Source of the DNA: Thermoflexales bacterium
GTDB lineage: Bacteria > Chloroflexota > Anaerolineae > J036 > Brachytrichaceae
Length of the DNA: 35,437 bases
NCBI GenBank assembly: GCA_019694215.1
Contig: JAIBCK010000032.1
Span: 1 to 35,437, forward strand
Direction of reading: 5' to 3'
Below, piece after piece: positions 293 to 16,481 of the stretch. Both the position numbers and the translations under genes were made by a program. Position 1 is the first letter of the stretch; each line of letters begins with the position of its first letter. Under the pieces are notes generated by a model. The model had not been told where the DNA came from and did no database searches. It saw nothing but the letters and a program-made list of their open reading frames with translations.

Positions 293-464
293 GATAACCC
301 AATCCGTAGGATGACATAATGGTTGGCGACCTCAATGCAGTACCGCGGCAGGGAAGCTCTGTCGCACGTTCGCACGGACTCTGCCATGCGGGTCATCTGC
401 CGAGTTGGAAGATCCCAGGCGAAGAACAGTCCCGGTGATTGACCCTTCTAGTGACCTCCCTTCC

Positions 465-1298
465 ATGAAAAGCACTGACTCGTCGCCAAGGAATGTGACG
501 AACTCCGGGTTGGCTGGCCAATACGACCGGTCTCCAAGCGCTGGACGCATTCATGCGGTGAGGGTGTTCGACCTGTTGGCGCGCGCCTGGCGCTCTGGGG
601 CCAATGGCCGCAATTCAGAGTCCCCCCGACAGAAACATATTCGTGGTGTGGTTCGCAATGTGGGTCGGCAGAACCTGACCTATTTGTCCCGGAATTCCCT
701 AGAACACCTCGTAGCCGTCTGCGAGCAGATCGACGACCTCCACATTCCAGGACTCATCATTGAGGCGGGTTGTGCATTGGGTGGAAGCGCGATCGTCCTT
801 GCCACTGCAAAGGGTCTCGAACGCAGGTTTGATATCTACGACGTGTTTGGGATGATCCCGGCCCCATCCCCCGAAGACACCCCCGACGTTTTCAAACGGT
901 ATTCGACCATCCTATCCGGGAAGGCCCGGGGAATTCGAGGAAGCCCCTACTACGGCTACGAGTCGAATCTGCTTGACATCGTGCTGGCCAACTTCAAGCG
1001 TTTTGGGATCGGCCTCGAAACCCACAATATGCGGGTCGTAAAAGGGCTGATCCAGGACACGCTGTCAATCAACGAACCGGTCGCGATGGCACACATCGAT
1101 GTCGATTGGTATTCACCCGTCAAGGTATCGCTGTCACGCATTTTCCCGAACCTCTCGGTCGGTGGAACGATCGTCCTGGACGACTATTTTGCGTGGGGGG
1201 GCTGCAAGAAGGCCACAGATGAATACCTGGCAACGGTGCAGGGGCAATGCGTGGCGATGCGCACCGGCTCGGTGCTTTCCATTACGAGGACATCGTGA
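465..1298 (+). CDS. TylF/macrocin O-methyltransferase-like SAM-dependent methyltransferase
   Basis: A class I SAM-dependent methyltransferase of about 277 aa, probably adding a methyl group to a sugar hydroxyl of the exported glycan. The SAM-binding glycine loop appears as IEAGCALGGSAIVLA. The later metal/substrate segment IDVDWYSPV, followed by GGTIVLDDYFAWGGCKKATDEYL, is characteristic of the TylF family. TylF proteins usually start not far before the conserved LSRNSLEHL segment, so this protein has a long, poorly conserved N-terminus. ATG at 465 is chosen. TTG at 405, GTG at 435 and GTG at 558 are in frame, and none has a good ribosome binding site. It is first in a tight operon, and its TGA overlaps the GTG of the next gene. 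The family is fairly secure; the substrate is unknown. Confidence 0.8.
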   Translation: MKSTDSSPRNVTNSGLAGQYDRSPSAGRIHAVRVFDLLARAWRSGANGRNSESPRQKHIRGVVRNVGRQNLTYLSRNSLEHLVAVCEQIDDLHIPGLIIEAGCALGGSAIVLATAKGLERRFDIYDVFGMIPAPSPEDTPDVFKRYSTILSGKARGIRGSPYYGYESNLLDIVLANFKRFGIGLETHNMRVVKGLIQDTLSINEPVAMAHIDVDWYSPVKVSLSRIFPNLSVGGTIVLDDYFAWGGCKKATDEYLATVQGQCVAMRTGSVLSITRTS

Positions 1299-2425
1299 AT
1301 GTGACCCTCGTTGGGCCTATCTTTCCCTTTCGAGGTGGAATAGCCCACTACACACGCCAACTCGCCATTGGCTTCGAGGACATCGGACATCCTGTGACGG
1401 TCGTCTCATTTTCGCGCTCCTATCCTCGTGCCCTATACAGGGGAGAAAGCGACAAGGACGGTAGCCTTGCGCCGGATCGATTACCGCACATCGAACACAC
1501 CCTCGATTGGCGATCTCCAGCCAGCTGGAAACGCGTGAGCGATGCTGTTGTCTCTTCAGCACCCCACCTTCTGTGCATAAACTGGTGGACATCTTTCTGG
1601 GCAGCGCCGACGGCCCACCTTGTCCACTCTTGCAGGCGGACGGACGTCACCAGATTGATCATCGCGCACAACGTGATCGGCCATGACGTTCCCAGGCTTC
1701 TCAAGGCGGCAGTAAAACGGGTGATCGGCAATGCCGATCTTTTCCTTGTCCATTCGCCAAGGGAACTCGACAAACTACTTGACATGGGAATTCAAGCCAG
1801 CCGGGTGATTCAGGAACCAATTCCGCCGTTTGAGCCACCCACACCCAAGGTCACAAATGCGAAGTGGGCGGGGCATGTTGATCGTGAACGGCACAAAGTG
1901 CTCCTGTTCTTTGGCTTTGTCAGACCCTACAAGGGTTTGAATACACTTCTGGATGCTCTGTCCATTCTTCGCAACCAGGGCATTGCGCCACACCTAATCG
2001 TTGCCGGTGAGTTTTGGCAGGACACGCGGCTCTATCAGGATCAGATCACTCGACTTGATTTGGGTTCCCAGGTCAGCCTGTTTGATGGATATGTGCCGGA
2101 ATCAGAGGTCGCCTCGCTCTTTGAGAGTGTGGACATTGTCGTCGCGCCATATGTCGAGGGCACTCAAAGTGCTGTCGTCTCCTTGGCGCAGGGCTACGGG
2201 CTACCCGTGGTGGCAAGCTCCACGATAGCCCAAGCGATGTCCTCTCAATCTCAATCCCCAGTCGCCATATTCCAGGCGGGTGATCCGTCAGACCTTGCCA
2301 GGGCTGTTGTCCAGCTTCTTCCCGCAACACGACAACCCAAGGTCTCCGTGACAGAAAGCTGGAGCAGCTTGGCTCAGCGGATCGCGGATCACACAATGCG
2401 AAACAAGACAGGTCATGCCAACTAG
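1295..2425 (+). CDS. Glycosyltransferase family 4 (GT-B fold)
   Basis: A cytoplasmic retaining glycosyltransferase of about 376 aa that would add a sugar from a nucleotide donor to a lipid-linked glycan. The N-terminal acceptor domain opens with VTLVGPIFPFRGGIAHYTRQ, with the usual glycine loop near residues 14-15. The C-terminal donor domain begins at FFGFVRPYKG (205-214) and ends with the PYVEGTQSAVVSLAQGYGLP segment, whose Glu (about 288) belongs to the GT4 E-x7-E region. GTG at 1295 is preferred over the upstream in-frame ATG at 1247 because it gives a GTGA overlap with the preceding stop and has GAGGA four to five bases upstream. The next gene starts inside its last codons (ATG at 2415). 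The linkage formed is not predictable. Confidence 0.85.
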   Translation: MNVTLVGPIFPFRGGIAHYTRQLAIGFEDIGHPVTVVSFSRSYPRALYRGESDKDGSLAPDRLPHIEHTLDWRSPASWKRVSDAVVSSAPHLLCINWWTSFWAAPTAHLVHSCRRTDVTRLIIAHNVIGHDVPRLLKAAVKRVIGNADLFLVHSPRELDKLLDMGIQASRVIQEPIPPFEPPTPKVTNAKWAGHVDRERHKVLLFFGFVRPYKGLNTLLDALSILRNQGIAPHLIVAGEFWQDTRLYQDQITRLDLGSQVSLFDGYVPESEVASLFESVDIVVAPYVEGTQSAVVSLAQGYGLPVVASSTIAQAMSSQSQSPVAIFQAGDPSDLARAVVQLLPATRQPKVSVTESWSSLAQRIADHTMRNKTGHAN

Positions 2426-4376
2426 CACTTTCGCCTTCGGTCCAGGTCTGGAGGCCGCGGCTGTCACGATTCTGGTCATGATCGTGGTATTTGTCCCGGG
2501 TTACTGCTTCACTGGCATCCTGATGCCCCATCAGACGGACCACAACGTGATTCTCAGCTATTCGCTTGGGCTGGGTGTTGTATTGCCTGGCCTCGTCTTG
2601 TTGTGGGCGCGGGTCATCGGCCTTCGCATGCTTTCGGCACCCGTAATTGCTGGCTACTGCGCGGTCAGCCTCTGTTTGCTGTTGTGGCTCCTGCGTCGCC
2701 GGAGCATTCGTCCGCGCCTTCCGACAGCCACCGAAGCACTCTTCCTTGTTGTATTCCTTGTCGCTCTGGTGGATCGTCTAGGCGCCGTGCTTGACCTTCG
2801 GTTTGGACACTTGGGTGACTCTCTGCAACACACGATCATTGTGCAGCTGCTGGTGGAACGAGGTGGCCTCTTCAACGATTGGGCTCCATATGGCGCCATG
2901 ACTTCCTTTAGCTACCATTTTGGCTTTCATGCAATAGCCGCGATGGCGCAAGTCCTGACAGGCATCGCCACTGAAAGATGCGTCGTTCTCGTGGGCCAGG
3001 TGATGAACGCCCTTGTGGTGCCCGCGACCTATCTGGGAACAGCGCTGCTGTTTGCCGACAAGGCATACAAACACCCATCATGGCGATGGGCGGGCGCGCT
3101 GGCCGCCCTCGTACCGGCCTTTCTGAATACGCAACCCGCCTATTACGTAAACTGGGGCCGTTATACACAGCTAACGGGACAGGTTGTCCTCCCGCTCGTC
3201 GGACCCCTTCTCTTGCGGCAGGTTGTTGGCCAATCCCGGTCTCGTAGAACCCAATGGGCGTTCGGTCTGCTACTCGGCGGTTTGTTTCTGACCCACTATA
3301 GGATATCCCTCATCGCGATCACGTTCATCGCAACTTCACTGATACTGCTGTGGGTTTCTTCCTCTGGTAACTGGCGACAGTCGCTGCGGGAGTCCCGAAC
3401 TCTCGTCTTCGTTGGGCTCTTATCGTTTGTGCTTGTCCTGCCGTGGCTGGTTCAGGTCTGGGGCGGCAAGTTGCCGACCATCTACGGACGCGTCCTGCCT
3501 CAAACGGGTGAGGCAATTCCAGCAGCCGCAATGGAGTTACCAAGAATCGCACCCTTCTATTTGAAATGGTGGATTGCAGCGCTTGCTGGTGTCGGTCTCC
3601 TGACGGGAATTCGCGGCAGAACTTGGGAAACGATCCATCCTGCCGGCTGGTTTATCGCCATGCTCGCGTTCCCCACCCTGTTTCTGTGGTCGTTACCTGG
3701 GGCGCGCCTAATTGACTGGATGACAATCTATATTGCCCTCTATATTCCAACTACCTATTTGTTTGGATATGCGGGCTCATGGCTACTTGCCAAATTGGCG
3801 GCATGGTCGCGCCGTTTGGAATACGTTGCCACCGTGGTTGGTGTCCTGACAATTTGCGCCTGGGGATTCAATTTCCAGCTCAATATTTTGAGTCCCGATA
3901 CCGGCAGGCTGGTCAACCACGACGACGAGTTGGCATTTGATTGGATCAAACAGAACACCCCTCCTGAAGGGCAATTTCTGGTTGGCGGCTTCCCTTGTTT
4001 CGGTGGCCTTGTGTGTGGGAATGATGCCGGCTGGTGGTTGACCTATGCCACTATGCGACACTCCAGCCTTTCCCCTCTGCCATACGCAACCGAAGCAACC
4101 GAGCCAATCACCTACAAGGCCAATCTCCAATCCCTGTATGGAGCGCTGAGGAGCTTCCCAACCAGCGATGATCGTACGGTGGTCATTGATCTGACAACCC
4201 CCGGCAAGATCGCCTTGCTCCGGCAAAACAAGATCGGATACATATTCATCGGCGGCTCCCGCTTTCCAGTGGCCAGCGACCGCTTTGACACGGCAGCGAT
4301 GCTGCGTAGTCCCGACTTCCGGCTTGTCTTTTCGCAAGGGGATACACGCATTTTTGAACTGCGATCAGAGCCATGA
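2415..4376 (+). CDS. Large multi-pass membrane protein, GT-C-like (possibly DUF6541-like)
   Basis: A 653-aa polytopic membrane protein with roughly a dozen hydrophobic helices, the first at about 14-36. After the early helices comes an extracytoplasmic loop with the phrase GHLGDSLQHT (Asp135), in the place where GT-C glycosyltransferases carry a catalytic acidic residue. The C-terminal soluble part contains LAFDWIKQNTPPEGQFLVGG and a GWWLTYATMRHSS stretch, a layout common to lipid-linked-sugar GT-C proteins and DUF6541-type proteins of glycan clusters. It overlaps the GT4 gene by 11 bases and the flippase by ATGA, so translation is probably coupled. It may transfer a sugar from a polyprenyl phosphate donor outside the membrane, or act as a polymerase-like enzyme. 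The function is inferred from topology and context only. Confidence 0.6.
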   Translation: MPTSTFAFGPGLEAAAVTILVMIVVFVPGYCFTGILMPHQTDHNVILSYSLGLGVVLPGLVLLWARVIGLRMLSAPVIAGYCAVSLCLLLWLLRRRSIRPRLPTATEALFLVVFLVALVDRLGAVLDLRFGHLGDSLQHTIIVQLLVERGGLFNDWAPYGAMTSFSYHFGFHAIAAMAQVLTGIATERCVVLVGQVMNALVVPATYLGTALLFADKAYKHPSWRWAGALAALVPAFLNTQPAYYVNWGRYTQLTGQVVLPLVGPLLLRQVVGQSRSRRTQWAFGLLLGGLFLTHYRISLIAITFIATSLILLWVSSSGNWRQSLRESRTLVFVGLLSFVLVLPWLVQVWGGKLPTIYGRVLPQTGEAIPAAAMELPRIAPFYLKWWIAALAGVGLLTGIRGRTWETIHPAGWFIAMLAFPTLFLWSLPGARLIDWMTIYIALYIPTTYLFGYAGSWLLAKLAAWSRRLEYVATVVGVLTICAWGFNFQLNILSPDTGRLVNHDDELAFDWIKQNTPPEGQFLVGGFPCFGGLVCGNDAGWWLTYATMRHSSLSPLPYATEATEPITYKANLQSLYGALRSFPTSDDRTVVIDLTTPGKIALLRQNKIGYIFIGGSRFPVASDRFDTAAMLRSPDFRLVFSQGDTRIFELRSEP

Positions 4377-5668
4377 CTGTGAAGATAACAAGCGGCAATG
4401 TGCGGTCATACGTCAGGGACATCGCCGTCAATCTGCCGCGTCTGCTGGAAACCGCGGCTGGACAGCTTGCGGCCCAGATTGTTTCAGCAGTACTGACATT
4501 GTTTGTTGCCAGAAAGCTTGGGCCAACCTTGACCGGCGATCTGGCAGTGGTCTATACCGTATCGACAATCGTTTCGCTTTTTTTCAACTGGGGCTTGGAC
4601 CTTTGGCTCCACGAGTCACTTCTGAAGGAGGCCAACCAACAGCAGGCACTGGTTGGCAAAATCAACCGGGTGCGTGTCAGGTTGGGCGGCGCTTCGATCC
4701 CACTGAGTGCCATTGTGTGGTGGATAACGACCAATCGTCCAGAACTATCTCCGCTTATCCTGGTCGCCGGCTGCGAGCTGCTTCTCGATGGTTGCCTTGG
4801 GGCCGTGATCATCGGAGAACACAGCGTTGCACATCACAAGCTAGGTTCCCGATTGTTGGTATTGCATCGAGTGCTCAAGTTAGCCGCCGTGGCAGCGCTA
4901 TTCGGCATCGGGATGGGATCACTGGCCGAAGTGGTCGTGACAAGGCTGATGGCAGCGGCACCGATCCTCGTGTTGTACCTGGTCAAGACAAATCGGCTGA
5001 CCAGGGTACCAGCCGTGAGTGCACCCGCCATGAGGGACATCATTCGGCACAGCGGCATTTACGCGCTGCTCAATGGCTTGTCCCTGGCCTATGGTCAGGT
5101 GGACGTCTTGCTCCTTGGGCTGCTATTGCCCGGAGGTGGGACCGTTGGATACTATTCGCAGGCGATGGGGATACTCATGAGCACCATGGCGTTGCCCTAC
5201 GCCGCGTATCTCGTTGTCACGCGAACCCTGGCAGCGCGGGTCAAGAAATCGGGACAGAAGGGGACAAATGCGTACGCGTATTCAATGGCCCTGTTTGTGC
5301 TGATAGGTTTGTTGCTTGCGGCATTCCTGTACTTCATCGGACCCGGCCTTCTCCTGCTCCTCCTTGGAGATGCCTACGCCACATCTGCGCATCTGGTGGC
5401 ACTTCAGTTTGGCACGGTTTTCCTCAAGTCCGTCAATCTAGGTTTGGCGTCGCTAATGGTGGTTGCCGCCATTCGTCGTCCCAGGGCCGTTGTACAGGGC
5501 ATATCTCTCTTCGTAAATCTGACGCTGAATCTGCTCCTGATACCAAATTTCGGCGCGGTCGCGGCGGTCTTTGTCTATACATTCAGTGAGGGAGTTCTGA
5601 TGGTGGGATATGCCGCGACGGTCGCACATCGTCTTCGGAAACATTCGATGACCTCTAGTCAAGCCTAG
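4373..5668 (+). CDS. Wzx-type oligosaccharide flippase (MATE/MOP superfamily)
   Basis: A 431-aa membrane protein with about 12-14 predicted helices, typical of polysaccharide biosynthesis flippases. The N-terminus carries LETAAGQLAAQIVSAVLTLF and FVARKLGPTLTGDLAVVYTV, the usual Wzx pattern in which an aligned small-residue helix precedes a loop with LGP..G. It would move undecaprenyl-linked repeat units across the cytoplasmic membrane. It starts in the ATGA overlap with the preceding membrane protein. No SD is needed if translation is coupled. Presence of a flippase but no recognisable Wzy polymerase or Wzz chain-length regulator in the window suggests that those functions lie elsewhere or are done by one of the GT-C-like proteins. 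Confidence 0.8.
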   Translation: MTVKITSGNVRSYVRDIAVNLPRLLETAAGQLAAQIVSAVLTLFVARKLGPTLTGDLAVVYTVSTIVSLFFNWGLDLWLHESLLKEANQQQALVGKINRVRVRLGGASIPLSAIVWWITTNRPELSPLILVAGCELLLDGCLGAVIIGEHSVAHHKLGSRLLVLHRVLKLAAVAALFGIGMGSLAEVVVTRLMAAAPILVLYLVKTNRLTRVPAVSAPAMRDIIRHSGIYALLNGLSLAYGQVDVLLLGLLLPGGGTVGYYSQAMGILMSTMALPYAAYLVVTRTLAARVKKSGQKGTNAYAYSMALFVLIGLLLAAFLYFIGPGLLLLLLGDAYATSAHLVALQFGTVFLKSVNLGLASLMVVAAIRRPRAVVQGISLFVNLTLNLLLIPNFGAVAAVFVYTFSEGVLMVGYAATVAHRLRKHSMTSSQA

Positions 5669-5683
5669 CATTTCAAAGCTGTC

Positions 5684-6556
5684 ATGACCAGTGATCCCGT
5701 TGTCTCCATCGTCCTTCCCACCTACAACAATGTCGGAACAATCGGTGCTGCAATACAGTCGGTGATCTTTCAGTCCTTCCAGGATTGGGAACTGCTTCTC
5801 CTTGACGACGGTTCCACTGACGGGACCCGGGAGCTGGTGGGGGCATTTGATGATCCTCGCATTCGACTGATTCAAGATGGACAGCATCTGGGCCTTGCCC
5901 CGCGGCTGAACCAGGGGATCGACTTGGCCCGCGGGAGCCTCATTGCACGAATGGATGGTGACGACATATGCTATCCAACTCGGCTCGCTTCCGAAGTGGC
6001 GTATCTTTCCATTCGCGGCGATGTCGATCTGGTTGGAAGCTTTGCCGCCTTTTTTGAGTCTCCTGACACGCCTCTGGGCATCTTTCGCGCTCCGGAACAT
6101 CACACCGAGCTTTGCGACAGAATGCCTGGGATCATTCGTCTGATTCACCCAACCTGGCTGGGGCGCGCCACCTGGTTTCGTCGCCACCATTACCACCCTT
6201 CCTTCCGGCGAATCGAAGACCAGGAACTTTTACTGCGGGCGAACAAGACCAGTCGCTATGCATGTGTGCAGGAAATCGGCCTCGCCTACCGGCTGCATTC
6301 AGGAAGCAGGAGAAGGGTGCGTAACGAGATCCTCGACCAATACTATCACTTGCGGCTGCGCTTGATATTTTCGGAGCAGCGCCAGCGGTATCGCACAATT
6401 GCAAAGGTGATTCTTTCCCGCGGCCCCAAACTCGTGTATCGACCTCTGTTGGCCGGCCTTGGGCTCACCAAACTCGCGCATCAGCGCGTCCTGACCCCAC
6501 CAACTTCGACCGAGCAGGCAGCCCTTCGTGAACTTATCAGGCGCTGCCAGCGTTGA
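5684..6556 (+). CDS. Glycosyltransferase family 2 (GT-A fold)
   Basis: An inverting glycosyltransferase of 290 aa. The GT2 signature is complete: VSIVLPTYNNVGTIGAAI at the start, nucleotide-binding DDGSTDGT at 41-48, and the metal-binding D-x-D as ARMDGDD (Asp91-Asp94). A later HPTWLGRATWFRRH stretch matches the usual middle of bacterial surface-glycan GT2 enzymes, and there is no transmembrane tail. It lies 15 bases after the flippase and is the last gene of the plus-strand operon. ATG at 5684 lacks a clear SD, so it is probably reached by coupling. Its final 20 bases overlap the end of the convergent acyltransferase gene. Acceptor and sugar are unknown. Confidence 0.85.
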   Translation: MTSDPVVSIVLPTYNNVGTIGAAIQSVIFQSFQDWELLLLDDGSTDGTRELVGAFDDPRIRLIQDGQHLGLAPRLNQGIDLARGSLIARMDGDDICYPTRLASEVAYLSIRGDVDLVGSFAAFFESPDTPLGIFRAPEHHTELCDRMPGIIRLIHPTWLGRATWFRRHHYHPSFRRIEDQELLLRANKTSRYACVQEIGLAYRLHSGSRRRVRNEILDQYYHLRLRLIFSEQRQRYRTIAKVILSRGPKLVYRPLLAGLGLTKLAHQRVLTPPTSTEQAALRELIRRCQR

Positions 6557-7661
6557 CAAGCTTGAGAAGGCGTTGCCGCACCGCGTTGTTGAGGTGCTGC
6601 TCGATAAGAACGTGCACCAATACACCAACGCAAACTGCGCCGACGAAGAGCGCCATCACGAGAACCGTAGGGTCCACCCATACCCTGAACTCACGCTTGA
6701 AAACTTGCAGCAAGGGGGCAATCGCGTCCAGCGCCAGGAATTGGGTGGCAAAGATGGAATACGAGGAACGCCCGACGAGCCTGGCGATTCGTACCGCCCA
6801 GCCAATTGGCCCGGCTTCCGGTGGCGGCTTGTCCAGTTGAAATCCCGCCAGTACAAGGAGCGCGGAGGGCAGACCATAGAACATGAGAAGAGGCACGTTT
6901 CCGGAACCAACTTGTTGCTCGATCGCCGCTGCCACCGAAAACCAGATCAAGCCAACCAAGATCAACATGCTCGCGGCGAGGCGGGAATCCAAACGGCGCC
7001 TTGACACGAATGCTTGTGTAGTCTTGAAAACAAGTCCGCCGAGCAGAAATTCGATATTGCGTTCATTGAGAATGAATCGCAGCAGATAGTGTGAATTTCC
7101 CAGCGGAAGTCCGGGAAGACAGTAGTTGCACACAATTGCGACAACGGACCAGACCGACATGCCAACCCAAAACGCCCTTGAGCCACGCGCGATCCCGACC
7201 ACCAGAAAGGTGTAGAAAAGAAGTTCGTGCGACAGGGTCCATGCCACACCGATGATTGGGTAAACCGATGGCCAGGGGAGTGGCAGAAGCAGATAGGATG
7301 CTGCCACAACAATCGGATCCAGTCTACCCTCATACGACAGGTTGGGAAAGAGCAGTATGGCTATCACCTTGAGCGAGATGAATAGCCAAAGTATTGGAAG
7401 AAGTCTGGATGCCCGTCCCGCCGCAAATGCCGGTATGTTGCCCGGGTTACCGAAAGTCCGTTCCACAGTCTTGACCATCATGGCACCACTCAAGACAAAG
7501 AACAGATCCACCCCGGGGACAACAAAGCCAGCAGTACCAGGCAGGTATGCGATATCCAGTTTTGTGGTAGCGACGTACTTCACATGCTGTGCAAGAACCA
7601 GTATCGCCGCGAATGCCCTGATCAACTCGATCGACCACAGGCGCTTTGCTTGGGCACCCAT
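6537..7661 (-). CDS. Acyltransferase family 3 (OafA/YrhL-like) membrane protein
   Basis: An integral membrane O-acyltransferase of about 374 aa with around ten helices, expected to acetylate or otherwise acylate the exported glycan. The family hallmarks are present: an early ELIRAFAAILVLAQH segment with the conserved Arg and His, then GVDLFFVLSG, then RASRLLPILWL, and later VAWTLSHELLFY. ATG at 7661 is chosen. A TTG at 7688 is in frame but lies inside the preceding lipoprotein gene. The ATG sits 13 bases after that gene's stop, with a weak CGGAA before it. It is the last gene of the minus-strand glycan series. Confidence 0.85.
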   Translation of the reverse strand: MGAQAKRLWSIELIRAFAAILVLAQHVKYVATTKLDIAYLPGTAGFVVPGVDLFFVLSGAMMVKTVERTFGNPGNIPAFAAGRASRLLPILWLFISLKVIAILLFPNLSYEGRLDPIVVAASYLLLPLPWPSVYPIIGVAWTLSHELLFYTFLVVGIARGSRAFWVGMSVWSVVAIVCNYCLPGLPLGNSHYLLRFILNERNIEFLLGGLVFKTTQAFVSRRRLDSRLAASMLILVGLIWFSVAAAIEQQVGSGNVPLLMFYGLPSALLVLAGFQLDKPPPEAGPIGWAVRIARLVGRSSYSIFATQFLALDAIAPLLQVFKREFRVWVDPTVLVMALFVGAVCVGVLVHVLIEQHLNNAVRQRLLKLVNAGSA

Positions 7662-7674
7662 CGTATTCCGTAGA

Positions 7675-8181
7675 TCAATAGGCCACAACGACCTCTCCCA
7701 GAATTACCGGCTGGTTGGGACGTACACGAATAATGACATCGTTGCCCTTCGCGTCGGAATAGCGGACTGAGCCACTAAATGTGGGATCGCCGACAAAAAG
7801 GACATAGTCACCGGGCTCGACGTTAATGAAATTGAACTGCCCGCTGCCCGTGGTCGTGGCTCTCGGCGATGTCCGAATGTCAAGCCCAAATACGGCATTG
7901 GTTCCGTCAGCACTGTAGTAAATCTTCGCCAGGAAGAGCTTGATATTGGCCTTCGCCCCATCAGCCTTGCCGTTTCGGAAGGTGCCACTAACAGAAGGTG
8001 CCGGGCTCGCCGGGCTCTTTGTGGCTTCAGGGATGGGGGATTGCAGCGTCGACGTGCTGGTTCCCGGTGCCACCATGGTTGATGGCGCTGTACTGACGGG
8101 TGGTACTGGCAAACCAGTCTCCTGCACCTTGCAAGAAGTCAACAGCATCACGCATGTCAACAGACAGGCTACGAGTCTCAT
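7675..8181 (-). CDS. Lipoprotein with a carboxypeptidase-regulatory-like beta domain
   Basis: A 168-aa predicted lipoprotein. The start reads MRLVACLLTCVMLLTSC with a lipobox ending at Cys17. A low-complexity Pro/Ser/Thr linker follows to about residue 60. The C-terminal half has the pattern SGTFRNGKADGAKANIKLF, SGQFNFINVEPGDYVLFVG, characteristic of small beta-sandwich domains of the carboxypeptidase-regulatory or SpaA type, where G-x-F-x-F-x-x-V-x-P-G-x-Y is conserved. It is probably anchored outside the membrane and binds or spaces a surface component. It lies between the surface repeat protein and the acyltransferase. ATG at 8181 is preferred to an in-frame GTG at 8190; no strong SD is visible. 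The specific role is unknown. Confidence 0.7.
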   Translation of the reverse strand: MRLVACLLTCVMLLTSCKVQETGLPVPPVSTAPSTMVAPGTSTSTLQSPIPEATKSPASPAPSVSGTFRNGKADGAKANIKLFLAKIYYSADGTNAVFGLDIRTSPRATTTGSGQFNFINVEPGDYVLFVGDPTFSGSVRYSDAKGNDVIIRVRPNQPVILGEVVVAY

Positions 8182-8203
8182 AGAGTGCACTTGGAATACA
8201 AGC

Positions 8204-8235
8204 TGTCGGCGCGGCTCTTTGGAACCGCGCCGACA
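8204..8235 (-). terminator. Hairpin between the surface protein and lipoprotein genes
   Basis: TGTCGGCGCGG (8204-8214) pairs perfectly with CCGCGCCGACA (8225-8235), 11 pairs with a 10-base loop. It lies 31 bases beyond the stop of the surface protein on the minus strand. No T-run follows, so termination may be partial and could reduce expression of the two downstream genes relative to the surface protein. Confidence 0.55.
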
Positions 8236-8265
8236 ACTTTATCGAGTCCCTCGAACGGGAGGCTA

Positions 8266-9741
8266 CTACGGAATGAACACCCCGTTGTAGTCTTCAGTCC
8301 AGAAGAGGTAGTCGAGCTGCTGGTGGCGAGACACAGCGATCAAGCTTGAGCCCGCCGGGCCAGTGACGATCATGCTTCCCTCAAACGCAGTCGCCGGAAC
8401 TGCGCCGGACATCGTCAACTGGGCATTCGTCACCGTGCCGAGACCAACGGAGAACTTGCTGCCGCTGCCCAGAGTGGCGTTGGTGACACCCGTTCGAACA
8501 ACATTGCCGTTGAGATCATAGAAGGTAACCGTGATCTGACCGGCGGGGATGGCTGCCCCGATGTTCTGAACCGACACGCTGGAAGCGATGTCACCCGGAG
8601 CCTGCGGGGTTGCGCGATACCGCATGTACGGGAAGGCGAGTTTGGCAGCACCCTGGCCCTGGCCCAAGAACCCGGTCTGATAGCCGGGAACCGTGGCGCT
8701 GACCTTCGCGACCACCACACCCTTGCCACCGCTACCAACGCTGATGTAGCCGGAGCCAAGGAATCCGGGGTTCGGAACACCGGCAGCATTGCACGGATTG
8801 ATGCTCTTCTTGGCATTCGGGCCGATGTCCGCGAACGTCTGGCTGCCAACTTCGGTATTCGTCGTATCCAGCCAATGAACGACGGCCGTGACGGTGAAGC
8901 TGGAGGTGTTTTGGAAGGCAAACACCGACGTGGCGTTCTGGGAGGCCGGCGCATATCCGCAAAGCGCCGTGGGCAGATAGACCGTGCTCGCCGCAGAGGC
9001 CAGCGGCACCGCTTCGTACCCATACGCCCGGCCATCGGTCGTGAAGTACTCTTCGGCGGTGCCAACCACCAGGCCCGGCGTCGCCGAACCGCTGCGAACA
9101 GCAGTCACGCGAACGGAACCGTTGAAGTTGGCAGGGATCCCCGGAATCGTCGTAGCATCCCGGCTATCGAAGAAGCGAGACGCATTCGCAGGAATGGTTG
9201 CACTGATGACAACATTCGAGCCAGAGGCCGGAATGAATGTGGCGGTGATATCCACCGAGACGCTCTCGATGTTCTGCACAGCGAGAACGCTCTTGGCATT
9301 GAAGGCTCCGTTCAGGAAGGTCGGCAGATAGAGATCCGAGGTGCCATCGCCCGAGCGAAAGCCAGTCGCCAGAATGCGGTTGGTCGTATTCACGCTGGGA
9401 ATCTGAATGGTCGAAGCAACCACATCAAAGTCAGCGCTGAGCACGGCACTTCCCTTGAAATTGGCGGCCAGCCCCGCAACGCTTCCAACCAGAATCGAGC
9501 CCGACCCGTGCGCCGGAATCGCCACGGGGATACTCACGGTAGCGGACGGCGTCCCGTTCAGGACCGGGTAGAAAGTGGCCGTCAACGCCCCGGAGGAATT
9601 CGAAGGATTCTGATAGATGATCTGGGACGTGAAGACAGTCGTTGATGCCTGGGCATTGACGCCCCGGGCAGCAACACCGAGGCATGCCGCCGACAACAGC
9701 GCAGCCAAGGCGGAATTTCGAAACACGCGATTTATGTTCAT
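8266..9741 (-). CDS. Secreted surface protein with four tandem beta-type repeats
   Basis: A 491-aa exported protein that I cannot assign to a named family. A signal peptide (MNINRVFRNSALAALLSAAC onward) has a plausible cleavage after VNA at about residue 30. The rest is four repeats of about 115 residues. Each has a phrase like VYLP, an invariant Gln-Asn (44-45, 156-157, 277-278, 392-393), an I-T-A-T-F-Y strand followed by a G-containing turn, and F-x-G-S before a final strand. The chain ends in NGVFIP, which resembles the opening of another repeat. Eight N-x-S/T sequons occur (48, 62, 118, 186, 207, 269, 278, 421). No membrane anchor or sorting motif is seen. ATG at 9741 is chosen because the signal peptide starts there; the AGGAGG upstream is 16 bases away, which is unusually far. 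It lies between pyruvyl transferase and a lipoprotein in the glycan cluster, so it may be a cell-surface or matrix protein. Confidence 0.7.
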   Translation of the reverse strand: MNINRVFRNSALAALLSAACLGVAARGVNAQASTTVFTSQIIYQNPSNSSGALTATFYPVLNGTPSATVSIPVAIPAHGSGSILVGSVAGLAANFKGSAVLSADFDVVASTIQIPSVNTTNRILATGFRSGDGTSDLYLPTFLNGAFNAKSVLAVQNIESVSVDITATFIPASGSNVVISATIPANASRFFDSRDATTIPGIPANFNGSVRVTAVRSGSATPGLVVGTAEEYFTTDGRAYGYEAVPLASAASTVYLPTALCGYAPASQNATSVFAFQNTSSFTVTAVVHWLDTTNTEVGSQTFADIGPNAKKSINPCNAAGVPNPGFLGSGYISVGSGGKGVVVAKVSATVPGYQTGFLGQGQGAAKLAFPYMRYRATPQAPGDIASSVSVQNIGAAIPAGQITVTFYDLNGNVVRTGVTNATLGSGSKFSVGLGTVTNAQLTMSGAVPATAFEGSMIVTGPAGSSLIAVSRHQQLDYLFWTEDYNGVFIP

Positions 9742-9996: not shown

Positions 9997-11295
9997 TCAT
10001 GGCGAGCCTGCCCACGCAGCTTGGGACAGTTCCATCTTGTAGGACGCATCGATGCTCGCTGACAGCTCTGTGGCCCGTCGCACACAATTCACATAATTAT
10101 TGATCTTGGCTGTCCCATTGCGGAGGTAGTGTTGCAGTTCGGAAGAGGCGAGCTCGCAACTTGATAGGACTACGTGGCCATCGCCAATATCCTCCATGAC
10201 GCCATCCATCTTGTAGAGATAGCTCAGAGGAATGATCGGCGTGCCTTGGCAGTAGGCAAAAATTGCAGAATGCATGCGCGTGGCGACCAACAGGTCAAGA
10301 TTGCCGTAGCATGACCAGAGTGTATTCAGTGAGGGCTGATCCGTCAAAAAGATTATGTTGATCTGGCTGCTGGCGGGGTGGGTGTCCAAGATTCGACGGA
10401 ACACATTTCGATCATCCTCGCCGGGGCTGGGTCCGGCGCACTGCGGCAACAGAATCAGGTCAATTGGAATTCCAGCAACCGCCGAATAGGCGTCAATCGC
10501 GCTCCAGAGCGCTTCTTCATACTGCGCCTGGCAATTTTCCCGGCCTACCTGAACCCCGTGCTCGATGACCGTGAGCCCAATCCTGCGAGATTCGCCCGGA
10601 GGCCGAACACCATGTGCACGCAGGTACGCTTCCCCTACTTCTTGTGATGCTCCTCGAAATCCAAATCCGAGATCAGGCGTTCGGATCATGCGAGGACAGT
10701 CGCCGCCGAGGAGTTCGTATACGAACGATTCCGACTTCCGTTCACGGGTCATGATCAGACCTGCATCCCTCAGTATCCATCTCAGCATCCAGCGTTGCCA
10801 GCCACTCCGACACGGGCCAATCGACTGCGACAGGTAGATGGTGGGCTTTCCGAACAGGCGGGCAACAACGAACGGAAGGAGCATGCCAAGGAATGCGCCA
10901 GCGCCAGCGCGCCCATACAGATAGCCGCCGGGGCAGGCGAATATCAGTCGCGCGCGCGCGATGACATCTATCAGAGCCATCTGATCCGACAGCAAACCGA
11001 ATTTCAGGGCGCGACCGAACACTCGGTACGACAGCGTGGCACCCACAAGGGCCAGCGGGAGAGACAGGATACTCCAAAGCTTGCGTGGAAACGTGTTGCC
11101 GCGGCGCAGGTTCCAGACACTGCTGACCACCGAACCGATGGTTGCATCTGCGTAGTCCGAGTAGCTGTCAGGATCGTTGGCCGACAGGACCAGTTCCTCG
11201 GCAGGGAAGTATTTGCGCAAGATCGCTATTGCTTTTGATACCAACGCTGCATCTCCGCTATTCCGCGCCGAGTGCAGTCCAAGCATCGCTATCAT
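9997..11295 (-). CDS. Polysaccharide pyruvyl transferase family protein (WcaK/AmsJ-like)
   Basis: A cytoplasmic enzyme of about 432 aa that would transfer pyruvate from phosphoenolpyruvate to a sugar of the glycan, adding a negatively charged ketal. The start MIAMLGLHSARNSGDAALVS matches the family, with the G-N/S-x-G-D loop. The centre has IYLSQSIGP and then MTRERKSESFVYELLG followed by a TPDLGF segment, which corresponds to the usual S-x-G-P, R-D/E-x-x-S and D-x-x-F order. The C-terminus contains LVATRMHSAIFAYCQGTPII, the conserved R-x-H-x-x-I/L segment. The frame is open further upstream to 11526, but ATG at 11295 has AAAGGA seven bases before it and the family starts there. The upstream part overlaps the preceding glycosyltransferase in another frame. 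Confidence 0.85.
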   Translation of the reverse strand: MIAMLGLHSARNSGDAALVSKAIAILRKYFPAEELVLSANDPDSYSDYADATIGSVVSSVWNLRRGNTFPRKLWSILSLPLALVGATLSYRVFGRALKFGLLSDQMALIDVIARARLIFACPGGYLYGRAGAGAFLGMLLPFVVARLFGKPTIYLSQSIGPCRSGWQRWMLRWILRDAGLIMTRERKSESFVYELLGGDCPRMIRTPDLGFGFRGASQEVGEAYLRAHGVRPPGESRRIGLTVIEHGVQVGRENCQAQYEEALWSAIDAYSAVAGIPIDLILLPQCAGPSPGEDDRNVFRRILDTHPASSQINIIFLTDQPSLNTLWSCYGNLDLLVATRMHSAIFAYCQGTPIIPLSYLYKMDGVMEDIGDGHVVLSSCELASSELQHYLRNGTAKINNYVNCVRRATELSASIDASYKMELSQAAWAGSP

Positions 11296-11357
11296 GTTTC
11301 TGTCCTTTCCTGGCAGGCGTCGCTGCGCCCCTGTTGCATTTCGCTCATTGCAGCGCT

Positions 11358-12305
11358 CTATGGCATTCTGGGCAGGGAAGCATCGGCGCCCGTAGCCCTG
11401 TTCCGGAAGACTGACACGATTCCGCGACAGAACCCGCCAATACGCGCATACGCTACGTTGTATCTCCCGTGCAAGGTCAACTTCACCAGCTCGAGTGCCT
11501 CCGATGTCAATATCGCGACAAAGCAAATGAGGCGGGAAATGATGCGACCTCGTGATAGATAGAATCTGATTCGGCCATACGCGAAATGCGCGTGACGGAA
11601 ACCCGACTGATTACGCGTGCTGGCCGAGACTGCATGCCACGCCACAGCTTGCGTCGCAACCTTGATTTCATACCCGCATTTCTTCATCCGAGTGCAGAGA
11701 TCCCAATCCTCATAGTACATGAAGTAGGACCGATCGAAGCCACCTATCTTGCGAAACGCCTTCAGTGAAACGAGCCACACGGCTGCCGGAACGGCATCAA
11801 CATCCACTGATCTCACGGTCGCCTTCGCGTCAGGTGAGATTGCCTTGGGAAGGCCAGTGATCACACCAAATCGGGTCCCGGAATGCCATATCTCGTTCGG
11901 CTGCGATGCAAATTTCATTACCGGTGCCACGATGGCGACCTGCGGATCGAGCCGCGCGACTTCGATGAGTTCCTGCAACATGCCAGGCGCGACTTCCACG
12001 TCATTGTTCAAGAGCAGGGCGTAGTCCAGTCCTAGAGAACTCATCGCCTCCAAGCCATGATTCATTCCTCCCGCAAAACCCAGGTTGCGATCGAGCGCGA
12101 GCACGGCAGTGGGACTACATAGCGATTTCAACCTCGCCAGGTTGTCCTCCGATGAGCCATTGTCCACGACCAGTATCGCTTCTGGCAGCACGCGGGACCG
12201 CTTCAGTGCGGCCAGACTGATCAGCGTCTGTTCAGGCAAATTCCAATTCAGGAGGATTGCCCCAACCTTGCAACTCTTGGGAGGAGCGCCCTCATGTGTT
12301 GTCAA
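11358..12305 (-). CDS. Glycosyltransferase family 2, rhamnosyltransferase-like (WbbL-type)
   Basis: A 315-aa inverting glycosyltransferase. The opening GAILLNWNLPEQTLISLAAL, VVDNGSSEDN (from about residue 46), RNLGFAGGMNHG and LLLNNDVEV (metal-binding Asn-Asn-Asp at 100-102) are typical of WbbL/rhamnosyltransferase-like GT2 proteins, as is FMYYEDWDLCTRM near 196. A rhamnose role would agree with the rfbC fragment at the left edge, but that link is inferred. No ATG is available near the family start. TTG at 12305 is chosen because CGAGG lies six bases before it; the frame is also open up to 12413 inside the previous gene. It is 55 bases downstream of the GT39-like gene. Confidence 0.8.
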   Translation of the reverse strand: MTTHEGAPPKSCKVGAILLNWNLPEQTLISLAALKRSRVLPEAILVVDNGSSEDNLARLKSLCSPTAVLALDRNLGFAGGMNHGLEAMSSLGLDYALLLNNDVEVAPGMLQELIEVARLDPQVAIVAPVMKFASQPNEIWHSGTRFGVITGLPKAISPDAKATVRSVDVDAVPAAVWLVSLKAFRKIGGFDRSYFMYYEDWDLCTRMKKCGYEIKVATQAVAWHAVSASTRNQSGFRHAHFAYGRIRFYLSRGRIISRLICFVAILTSEALELVKLTLHGRYNVAYARIGGFCRGIVSVFRNRATGADASLPRMP

Positions 12306-12360
12306 TTTGAACCTCGAATGATCCGTCGTCGTTTCGGGCCACGCAGTGTGAGCGGGAAGA

Positions 12361-13854
12361 TTAAGGAGCCGGTGCGCTGCACTGCACGTCAAAGGCCGCA
12401 AATGGCCCTGCAACGGGTCCGCTGGTCAATGCACAAACACCCTCAATCGCCTCGATCGCTTCACTCTTGACTCCCGAAGGTGCCACGAGCCAAAGCCGAC
12501 GTTCCTCGCGAACTCGGTCCAACGAAACAACTGAACGTGGGCCAGTTGGCACAAGGAATTCATCCCCTGTCACGTAACGGAAGGTAAGTTCGTGTCCGAT
12601 AGATTGCGGGTTTACAAAAAGGTTGGTTGTCGGGAGGTACATACCAGTTGCAAAACTCAGCGAAGTATGCAGGCTTATCACCGGTCTTCGCCCTGTGTCG
12701 GTACTTCCCAACATGGAAATCAGCGCACCTTCCGGGCTCTTGATGGTTCCCCAGTAGGTTCTGAGACCTACTAAGTTTAATACCAGCAGAATAACAGACA
12801 GTCCAACCGTCGTCGAGGACAACAAAGGTAGTCGTAACCTGAGAGCTGAAATCGCGAACCCAACCAATACGAGCACGGATGGCAGAAGAACGATGAATTG
12901 CTTGCCCTCAGATTGTGGAACGCTTATGCCCGAGACGGCTGAGAACACAAAATACGCTGTGAGAGGGAGCACGAATTGCACCGCAAAGTAACGCCGCTGC
13001 ACGGTTGGCCGCACCAACACACTCCCAAAGGCAACGATCAGCAAGAAGGAGACGATCACTCCGGCAATCACTGTCTGGACACTCTCGCCAAATCGCGCTG
13101 GATCATTGCTTGACAGGACCTCGGCAATGCGCAACGGGGACAGAGGTTGCTGACTGGCATTGGCGAGCGAGACCCTCCGTAGCGCACTTGTCGCCCAGGG
13201 CACAAGCAGTAGTCCCGAAGCGCCAACTGTGAGAAATGACACGATCCACCCAATACGCCGAAGATGCCGGCCGGCGAGAAATGCAGCCTGAACCGCGACG
13301 ACCATGACGTAGGAGTAGCCAAACCACAAACCAACTACCGACAACAACGTCCAGAACACCTGCAATCGCCGATCATGCTGGGACAACAGACGATCTGTCA
13401 CCCAGGAGCTCAGTGCTGACAGGGCAACCAGCGTCATCGTCGCACGTGCCTCCTGCGAATAATAGCCAACCGCAGGCAACGTCATAAGGACCGCACCGAC
13501 CGATACGGCGACGCGATCTCCAGTGTGTCTTCGGGCAATTTTCCAAACCACGGCTACGGCGATGGTGCTGGCAAGGACTGATATCCAACGCCACATCCAC
13601 TCCGATCTGGATGAGGCAAATGCCGTTAGCAGCCACTCTGCAAGATAGAAGCCGGGCGGATGTGGATCCGTGAAACTGTTTTGACCAATGGCGGGAACCC
13701 CGAGTCGGGCCAGTCGGTAGCCAAATATCTCGTCCAGCCACATGGGCGCATTCAAGTTTGGCAATCTCAGCAACAGATTGGCACACAACAGGAGCCCGAT
13801 CCAACCAAATTGGCGGTATGGAGTTCGGATCAGCAGCTGTTTGTGTCGACTCAT
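12361..13854 (-). CDS. GT39/ArnT-like polytopic membrane glycosyltransferase
   Basis: A 497-aa membrane protein with about 11 hydrophobic helices. After the first helix comes NAPMWLDEIFGYRLARLG, with the acidic pair Asp41-Glu42 in the first external loop, the catalytic position of GT-C enzymes. DPHPPGFYLAEWLL (63 onward) and YYSQEARATMTLVAL follow, both classic GT39/PMT-like phrases. The C-terminal 100 residues are soluble and extracytoplasmic. Such enzymes take a sugar from a polyprenyl phosphate and attach it to a glycan, lipid or protein outside the membrane. ATG at 13854 is the first start after the divergent control region. It leads the minus-strand series ending at the acyltransferase. 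The acceptor is unknown. Confidence 0.8.
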   Translation of the reverse strand: MSRHKQLLIRTPYRQFGWIGLLLCANLLLRLPNLNAPMWLDEIFGYRLARLGVPAIGQNSFTDPHPPGFYLAEWLLTAFASSRSEWMWRWISVLASTIAVAVVWKIARRHTGDRVAVSVGAVLMTLPAVGYYSQEARATMTLVALSALSSWVTDRLLSQHDRRLQVFWTLLSVVGLWFGYSYVMVVAVQAAFLAGRHLRRIGWIVSFLTVGASGLLLVPWATSALRRVSLANASQQPLSPLRIAEVLSSNDPARFGESVQTVIAGVIVSFLLIVAFGSVLVRPTVQRRYFAVQFVLPLTAYFVFSAVSGISVPQSEGKQFIVLLPSVLVLVGFAISALRLRLPLLSSTTVGLSVILLVLNLVGLRTYWGTIKSPEGALISMLGSTDTGRRPVISLHTSLSFATGMYLPTTNLFVNPQSIGHELTFRYVTGDEFLVPTGPRSVVSLDRVREERRLWLVAPSGVKSEAIEAIEGVCALTSGPVAGPFAAFDVQCSAPAP

Positions 13855-13977: not shown

Positions 13978-14069
13978 GAGCACGCCCACGGTCGAACACT
14001 TCCAAAGCACCCCTGGAATTTCACGGGCACCAACCATCGCGGCATGCGGCCCGCGCCAGTCTCCAGCGC

Positions 14070-15077: not shown

Positions 15078-16481
15078 ATGAAGCGCGTCGGTTCGCTGCT
15101 CCTGATGGCCCTGGTGGCGGCCAACGTCGCCTTGGCGCAGGGACCGGTGCCCGAAACACCCACGCCGCCGACTCCCGTCGCAGCCATCGGCACCCCGGTG
15201 CCAACGGCAACGGCAGGCTCGGTCTTCGACTTCCTCCGCCCACGGCCGAGCCCCACGCCCGCCCCGACCGCCACCCCGACTCCACCCCCGTTCGGCCGGC
15301 CGCTGCGCACGGTGTCCAACGCAAACAGAACACTCGGCGCCAGCAAGTCCAGCGGAAGCATCCCGGCGATGAAGCTCATCCCGGACAGCGAGCTGGTGAA
15401 TGGCCCCGCGGCGGCCGGTTTCGACATGGGTGCCTTTCTGGACGGGCGACGCGGATATCTCACCCGCTACTCGGAGCGCGTGCGCGACGAGGTGCTGAGC
15501 GGGGAGCAGATCATCGACCGGGTGGCCTACCAGTTCAGCGTCAACCCGCGCCTGCTGCTGGCAATGCTGGAGTGGCAGGGCGGCTGGCTCGATGACCCCA
15601 ACCCCACCGGCAACGCGCGGCTCTATCCGTATGGCGAGATCAACGCACAACGACCAAATCTATACCTTCAGGTGGCCTGGGCGGCGGCCCGCCTGAACGA
15701 GGGCTACTACGGCGTGCGACTCGGGACACGCCAGCAGGTCGCTCTCGACAGTGGTGCGAAACTCGACCTGCCAGCCGGCGTCAATGCGGGAACAGCCGGG
15801 CTGATGAGTTACATCGCCGCCGTCAGCGGCTCACGGACCTGGGCGCAGGCCATGGGCGAAGGTGGCTTCATGGCCACTTACCGCAGCCTGTTTGGCGACC
15901 CGGCGCAATATGACGCCGGCCCTCCCGTCCCGGCGGGGACGCAGCAACCAAAGCTGCGCCTCCCCTGGGCCGAAGGCGAGACCTGGCTTTTTACGGGCGG
16001 CGCGCACAGCGCATGGGGGGTGGGCGCGCCCTGGGGCGCGGTCGACTTCACGACGGCCAGCGTGGGGGGATGCCAACCGCTGCCCGAGTGGGCGCTCGCC
16101 GTCGCCGATGGCACCATCGCCCGCAGTCGCAATGGCGAGGTGGGTCTGTCGCTGCACCCGGGCGGAGATGAACGCGTGGGCTGGTCGGTGTTCTACATGC
16201 ACGTCGGCGCGGTCGGTCGCGCCGCCAGTGGCACTCGCGTCCTGGCCGGGGATCGGATCGGGCATCCGGCCTGCGACGGCGGCCTCTCGATTGCGGCGCA
16301 CCTCCACATCGCGCGCAAGCTGAACGGCGAGTGGCTGCCGGCGTTGAGCGCCATCCCCTACACGCTGGGGGCTTGGACGTTTACCGAGGACGAGGCCGAA
16401 TACGACGGCTATGCGATCAAGGGCGGCGAGGTCCGAGAAGCCACCGAAACCCGCGATCCGGCCATCAACGGAATCCATTAA
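15078..16481 (+). CDS. Secreted M23 (LasA-type) metallopeptidase with a lytic-enzyme-like N-terminal half
   Basis: A 467-aa exported cell-wall enzyme. It has a signal peptide (MKRVGSLLLMALVAANVALA), a Thr/Pro-rich linker to about 75, a helical region (about 115-275) and a C-terminal M23 domain (about 295-425). In the M23 domain His310 and Asp323 are 13 residues apart, as in LasA, and FYMH (His375) and HLH (His408, His410) supply the remaining catalytic and zinc ligands. The helical region contains GEQIIDRVAYQFSVNPRLLL, which resembles the start of lytic-transglycosylase-like folds, but the catalytic Glu cannot be assigned with confidence (Glu165 in MLEWQGGW is a candidate). It would cut peptide cross-links in peptidoglycan and perhaps glycan strands. 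The stop at 16479-16481 overlaps a possible promoter of the next gene. Confidence 0.8.
   Translation: MKRVGSLLLMALVAANVALAQGPVPETPTPPTPVAAIGTPVPTATAGSVFDFLRPRPSPTPAPTATPTPPPFGRPLRTVSNANRTLGASKSSGSIPAMKLIPDSELVNGPAAAGFDMGAFLDGRRGYLTRYSERVRDEVLSGEQIIDRVAYQFSVNPRLLLAMLEWQGGWLDDPNPTGNARLYPYGEINAQRPNLYLQVAWAAARLNEGYYGVRLGTRQQVALDSGAKLDLPAGVNAGTAGLMSYIAAVSGSRTWAQAMGEGGFMATYRSLFGDPAQYDAGPPVPAGTQQPKLRLPWAEGETWLFTGGAHSAWGVGAPWGAVDFTTASVGGCQPLPEWALAVADGTIARSRNGEVGLSLHPGGDERVGWSVFYMHVGAVGRAASGTRVLAGDRIGHPACDGGLSIAAHLHIARKLNGEWLPALSAIPYTLGAWTFTEDEAEYDGYAIKGGEVREATETRDPAINGIH

Follow-up and report, generated by a model that had tools for sequence, protein, structure and literature searches.

The window, meaning the whole stretch of DNA analyzed, comprises 35,437 nucleotides of contig JAIBCK010000032.1 from a Thermoflexales bacterium (assembly GCA_019694215.1). 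It carries a glycan locus, within which lies a gene for a protein with four repeats, each marked by a Gln-Asn (QN) pair; we refer to this gene and its product as the tetrad. The features of the locus are as follows.

405..1298 (+), TylF-type methyltransferase; in some ten relatives a direct neighbor of the tetrad gene
1247..2425 (+), glycosyltransferase family 4
2415..4376 (+), large membrane protein; no Pfam match here, the relative in locus L027 is DUF6541; many loci keep it close to the tetrad gene
4373..5668 (+), Wzx-type polysaccharide flippase (PF13440); kept in 26 of 34 loci
5684..6556 (+), glycosyltransferase family 2
6537..7688 (-), membrane O-acyltransferase (PF01757)
7675..8190 (-), partner lipoprotein, lipobox LTSC; weak carboxypeptidase-regulatory-like (CarboxypepD_reg) match in one relative
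8200..8239 (-), long stem-loop of 18 bp (z -5.8), terminator-like with a weak U tail, immediately 3′ of the tetrad gene
8266..9741 (-), QN-tetrad gene, 491 aa; signal peptide and four predicted ASRAH-like beta-sandwich domains
8269..8643 (-), repeat 4, residues 367-491; QN at 8563-8568; invariant Arg374, Lys429, Arg472
8665..8985 (-), repeat 3, residues 253-359; QN at 8908-8913; invariant Cys261/Cys317, Lys311, Lys346
8995..9336 (-), repeat 2, residues 136-249; QN at 9271-9276; matches TM1070 (1nc7), Z 14.0
9355..9636 (-), repeat 1, residues 36-129; QN at 9607-9612
9649..9741 (-), signal peptide, residues 1-31 (MNINRVFRNSALAALLSAACLGVAARGVNAQ), assigned from sequence; model pLDDT <50 there
9997..11526 (-), polysaccharide pyruvyl transferase; PF04230 over 10219-11262
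11358..12413 (-), glycosyltransferase family 2
12361..13854 (-), PMT_2-type membrane glycosyltransferase

The tetrad gene reads from an ATG at 9741, preceded by an AGGAGG-type ribosome site, to a stop at 8266-8268. The earlier note had placed it correctly at 8266-9741; its strand is minus, and the plus strand over the same interval is interrupted by stops. The setting proposed there, a glycan cluster next to a lipoprotein, also holds, the lipoprotein being real and a conserved partner. The source genome contains a single copy of the tetrad gene. In most relatives a strong hairpin lies directly 3′ of the gene, with unrelated sequences and in many cases a U tail, so that the gene usually has its own terminator-like hairpin, and it is often divergent from the lipoprotein gene. 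The hairpin points to a product that is terminated independently and may be abundant, as would fit a lectin coat or a lattice alike. An Rfam search of the whole window returned no match. GC content rises from about 0.56 to 0.67 from position 14000 onward, leaving the glycan cluster AT-richer than its right flank, where a further secreted protein (15078-16481, plus strand) has a proline/threonine-rich linker, no Pfam match, and a C-terminal part that recalls M23-type peptidases by eye.

The 491-residue product bears out the pattern that had been read from the sequence: QN occurs at residues 44, 156, 277, and 392, and each in-register QN is followed by a strand and then by F-x-G-S (TATFY/FKGS, TATFI/FNGS, TAVVHW/FLGS, and ITVTFY/FEGS in repeats 1 to 4). 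A fifth QN, at residue 268, is out of repeat register. This recurrence of QN, strand, and GS-type strand is beyond chance. Single-sequence alignments of the segments were scored against 500 shuffles; similarity was clear for repeats 1 and 2 (0/500 shuffles reaching the real score), 2 and 3 (2/500), and 2 and 4 (6/500), marginal for repeats 1 and 4 and repeats 3 and 4, and without signal for repeats 1 and 3. Profile-profile comparison with hhalign, using 23 family members, found all six repeat pairs homologous (E values of 8e-15 to 1e-7). The Asn of QN is invariant in all four repeats of 35/35 close relatives, and in 18 distant relatives it is kept in 18, 18, 18, and 15 sequences at the four positions. 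We rejected a fifth repeat: the C-terminal phrase EDYNGVFIP, which had been likened to the opening of one, forms the strand that closes repeat 4. AYGYEAVPL is its counterpart at the close of repeat 2, and earlier repeats finish on an equivalent strand.

Searches of Pfam, NCBIfam, and PHROGs with the window protein gave only subthreshold matches, to Ig-like families, and a search of the PDB by sequence with the family profile as query gave none. An AlphaFold model of the full protein, built on a 12-sequence alignment (mean pLDDT of 82, pTM of 0.82), predicts four beta-sandwiches, in every one of which about eight strands follow one another in the same order. Repeat 2 of the model matches 1nc7, Thermotoga TM1070, over 109/117 residues (Z 14.0, rmsd of 2.5) and the Anabaena sensory rhodopsin transducer (ASRT) at Z 10.4, the next, unrelated match standing at 7.1. 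The earlier note had suggested predicting the structure of one repeat and searching with its profile. Repeat 4, the most divergent of the four, was folded alone (pLDDT of 84), and its top match was again 1nc7 (Z 11.0, 113/116 residues, rmsd of 3.9), with ASRT second (Z 8.3) and a drop to 6.2 thereafter. Single-repeat profiles had no significant match to ASRT (hhalign E values of 0.008 to 0.14, probability about 5% or less, in register at QN/LN). The likeness among the four domains rests on their shared strand pattern, on sequence homology, and on two repeats independently matching one template. Long, low-TM matches to complement C3/C5 dominated the whole-model Foldseek search and were dismissed as chains of beta domains (TM of about 0.1, rmsd of about 20).

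ASRT (PF07100) belongs to the ASRAH superfamily named by De Souza, Iyer, and Aravind in 2009, an eight-stranded sandwich in which strand 2 ends on an almost invariable Asn that shapes the turn between strands 2 and 3; its domains are found in dyads and tetrads, and their predicted binding of sugars derives from contextual evidence (PMC2739507). Described traits also include a conserved Trp at the start of strand 1, the motif SHEshChhN in solo ASRT, and tetrads fused to an amidase in Chloroflexi (PMC2739507). The window protein shares with ASRAH the eight-stranded sandwich (TM1070 topology, in predicted models), the tetrad arrangement, and linkage to sugar genes, and the Asn of QN corresponds to the Asn ending strand 2, in repeat 1 placed directly after E52-59. 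In contrast, the strand-1 Trp is absent from repeats 1 to 3; at the end of strand 1 of repeat 4 most relatives read PYVRW, and the window protein has Tyr there. SHEshChhN is likewise absent, the corresponding strands reading TSQIIYQN, SVLAVQN, SVFAFQN, and SSVSVQN. Furthermore, the four domains are accompanied by no amidase that Pfam can find, and the window protein, unlike the described ASRAH proteins, is linked to genes for a pyruvyl transferase and a lipoprotein. Searching for an amidase-fused relative with the repeat-4 profile in Roseiflexus, Chloroflexus, and two further genomes returned only tetrads and weak matches. Sequence similarity to PF07100 is weak (best E value of 0.0021, reached in 2/21 family members). 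Given the missing strand-1 Trp and SHEshChhN and this weak similarity, we call the protein ASRAH-like rather than a member of a described family: it would represent a new family, placed either inside the superfamily or next to it and outside the three families described. Computation shows a secreted protein of four homologous domains and their predicted ASRAH-like beta-sandwich fold, together with the conserved gene linkage and the subfamily-specific basic residues described below. The earlier view that no named family fits is not supported, both on account of the ASRT/ASRAH fold and because distant homologues match DUF5719 (PF18986). The window protein itself has no DUF5719 match, but L104, a distant homologue from the same phylum, reaches 194 bits against the profile of the window family and also passes the DUF5719 cutoff (E value of 5.9e-12), so that, judged by these profile scores, DUF5719 is the nearest curated name for the family.

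The tetrad belongs to a conserved Chloroflexota locus together with the lipoprotein and the pyruvyl transferase. Neighbors were counted by hand in 34 distinct loci of the close subfamily after removal of duplicate loci. The lipoprotein adjoins the tetrad gene in 32/34, the other two ending at a contig edge on that side, and a pyruvyl transferase is nearby in 30/34, while in the other four the contig breaks off on one side no more than 2 kb away. The lipobox Cys is present in all 21 lipoproteins aligned. In a phylum sample of 400 Chloroflexota genomes, PF04230 occurs in 16/16 genomes carrying the close subfamily versus 36/384 others (Fisher P = 7e-16); related genomes make these counts nonindependent, though eight genera agree (8/8 subfamily genera, P = 3e-7). 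Tetrad and PF04230 genes lie within 4 kb on one contig in 15 of the 16 subfamily genomes, and the only PF04230 gene of the source genome is the immediate upstream neighbor of the tetrad gene, in the same orientation. The lipoprotein gene is within 2 kb of the tetrad in every close-subfamily genome of the sample. Conversely, the lipoprotein is matched strongly in 31 of the 400 genomes, every one of which encodes a QN-family protein, with the two genes within 2 kb in the 30 genomes where the distance was measured. Many genomes of the distant QN group, too, have a lipoprotein relative close to the QN gene; the one distant-group locus viewed in detail, L024, contains glycosyltransferases and methyltransferases, and no pyruvyl transferase was detected there. 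In L051 (1764-4220) and L099, pyruvyl transferase and flippase profiles match one open reading frame of 819 to 846 aa, likely a fusion.

We aligned 35 proteins of the close subfamily and 18 distant QN proteins for comparison. Five basic residues of repeats 3 and 4 (K311, K346, R374, K429, and R472) are invariant in 35/35 close-subfamily sequences, while the distant group has Ser, Asn, Met, or others at these positions, and Lys turns up once among the 87 cells that could be scored. In the hhalign alignment, K311 is equivalent to K429 and K346 to R472. Near-invariant positions are enriched in basic residues (6/46 versus 19/463 in the mature protein, P = 0.007), and Cys261 and Cys317 of repeat 3 are also subfamily specific. 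Since many distant-group genomes keep a lipoprotein relative near the QN gene and L024 lacks a detected pyruvyl transferase, the five basic residues appear to go with the transferase and not with the module as such. Alternatively, they may be structural or a clade marker, the close subfamily and the clade being coincident.

A matrix or S-layer type, as suggested in the earlier note, is possible; the locus context points to something more specific, namely recognition of a pyruvylated polysaccharide. The best explanation, which we judge about equally apt to prove right or wrong, is a surface lectin that binds the pyruvylated polysaccharide of its own locus and is held by the lipoprotein. The neighboring pyruvyl transferase would place pyruvate ketals on the locus polysaccharide, and the secreted tetrad and the lipoprotein would form a surface module binding that polymer, with repeats 3 and 4 contacting the acidic pyruvate groups through their invariant Lys and Arg residues. 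By holding the tetrad, the membrane-anchored lipoprotein would keep the polymer on the cell. Sugar binding, the pyruvate epitope, and physical contact with the lipoprotein are all presumed in this scheme. Xanthan and other exopolysaccharides that carry pyruvate are not known to require a receptor of their own, which counts against a lectin.

A precedent for such recognition exists in Bacillus-type walls, where SLH domains bind a ketal produced by the pyruvyl transferase CsaB (PMC6801904, PMC6030368). The proposed likeness is that a secreted protein reads a pyruvylated surface glycan and is genetically linked to PF04230; the tetrad differs in having an unrelated domain, a beta-sandwich and not SLH, in being paired with a lipoprotein, and in that its ligand is a presumed one. 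SLH domains were found neither in the window protein nor in its genome or 17 other carrier genomes (18 in total), and control genomes matched. It is possible, though on balance somewhat doubtful, that the tetrad and lipoprotein constitute an SLH-independent means of recognizing and anchoring pyruvylated surface polysaccharide in Chloroflexota, and thus a second, unrelated protein solution to the pyruvate-ketal epitope.

Other roles would fit parts of the same evidence. Tight linkage in most loci to a flippase, a polymerase-like membrane protein, and modifying enzymes would be expected if tetrad and lipoprotein formed an extracytoplasmic scaffold of polysaccharide assembly or export, guiding the polymer across the wall or presenting it for modification such as acylation, and then leaving the mature polymer. 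Export machines commonly have a lipoprotein partner. However, the donor for pyruvyl transfer is phosphoenolpyruvate, and the reaction should take place in the cytoplasm, out of reach of any help from an exported tetrad; moreover, the gene's own strong hairpin and frequent divergence from the lipoprotein gene fit an independently expressed, perhaps abundant product better; we consider such a scaffold unlikely. A structural sheath or S-layer-like protein, whose beta domains polymerize and whose neighboring enzymes glycosylate the layer or make the glycan beneath it, seems to us quite improbable. It would agree with a secreted four-domain beta protein encoded once in the genome, with the strong downstream hairpin in most relatives, and with the surrounding glycan locus, and S-layers have been seen in some Chloroflexota (PMC10284905). 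Yet the protein has no SLH or other known anchor, its genome has no SLH, and the Lys/Arg conservation tracks the pyruvyl transferase, a pattern that a pure lattice role does not predict.

The fold is already known, as are ASRAH tetrads in Chloroflexi. In the literature searched, we did not find an amidase-free tetrad, a lipoprotein partner, or linkage to a pyruvyl transferase; ASRAH in the superfamily sense appeared only in PMC2739507, DUF5719 was not mentioned, and Chloroflexi and polysaccharide pyruvyl transferase occurred together only in work on gene transfer at large. Nor did that literature contain a demonstration of sugar binding by ASRAH. The Chloroflexota envelope is poorly understood, including how members without SLH hold surface polysaccharides, and the conserved set of tetrad, lipoprotein, and pyruvyl transferase offers a candidate for which both a definite ligand and particular contact residues are predicted. 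If the tetrad is indeed a lectin for pyruvylated polysaccharide, a superfamily for which sugar binding was predicted from context would gain a concrete candidate ligand.

Full-length relatives, at about 28 to 41% identity, are found in Anaerolineae, Caldilineaceae, Chloroflexus, Roseiflexus, and others. A contig profile search with the single window sequence recovered no relatives; the same scan with the alignment found them. A full-length member with the whole locus (L051) lies on a contig labeled Singulisphaera (Planctomycetota), through either misbinning or transfer. Broader QN-repeat relatives contain a subtilase domain (L102:6262-8838), a weak GH39/GH10-like domain (L100:1044-4247), or a TIG domain (L101:7438-12228), and in view of these combinations the QN repeat looks like a mobile extracellular module.
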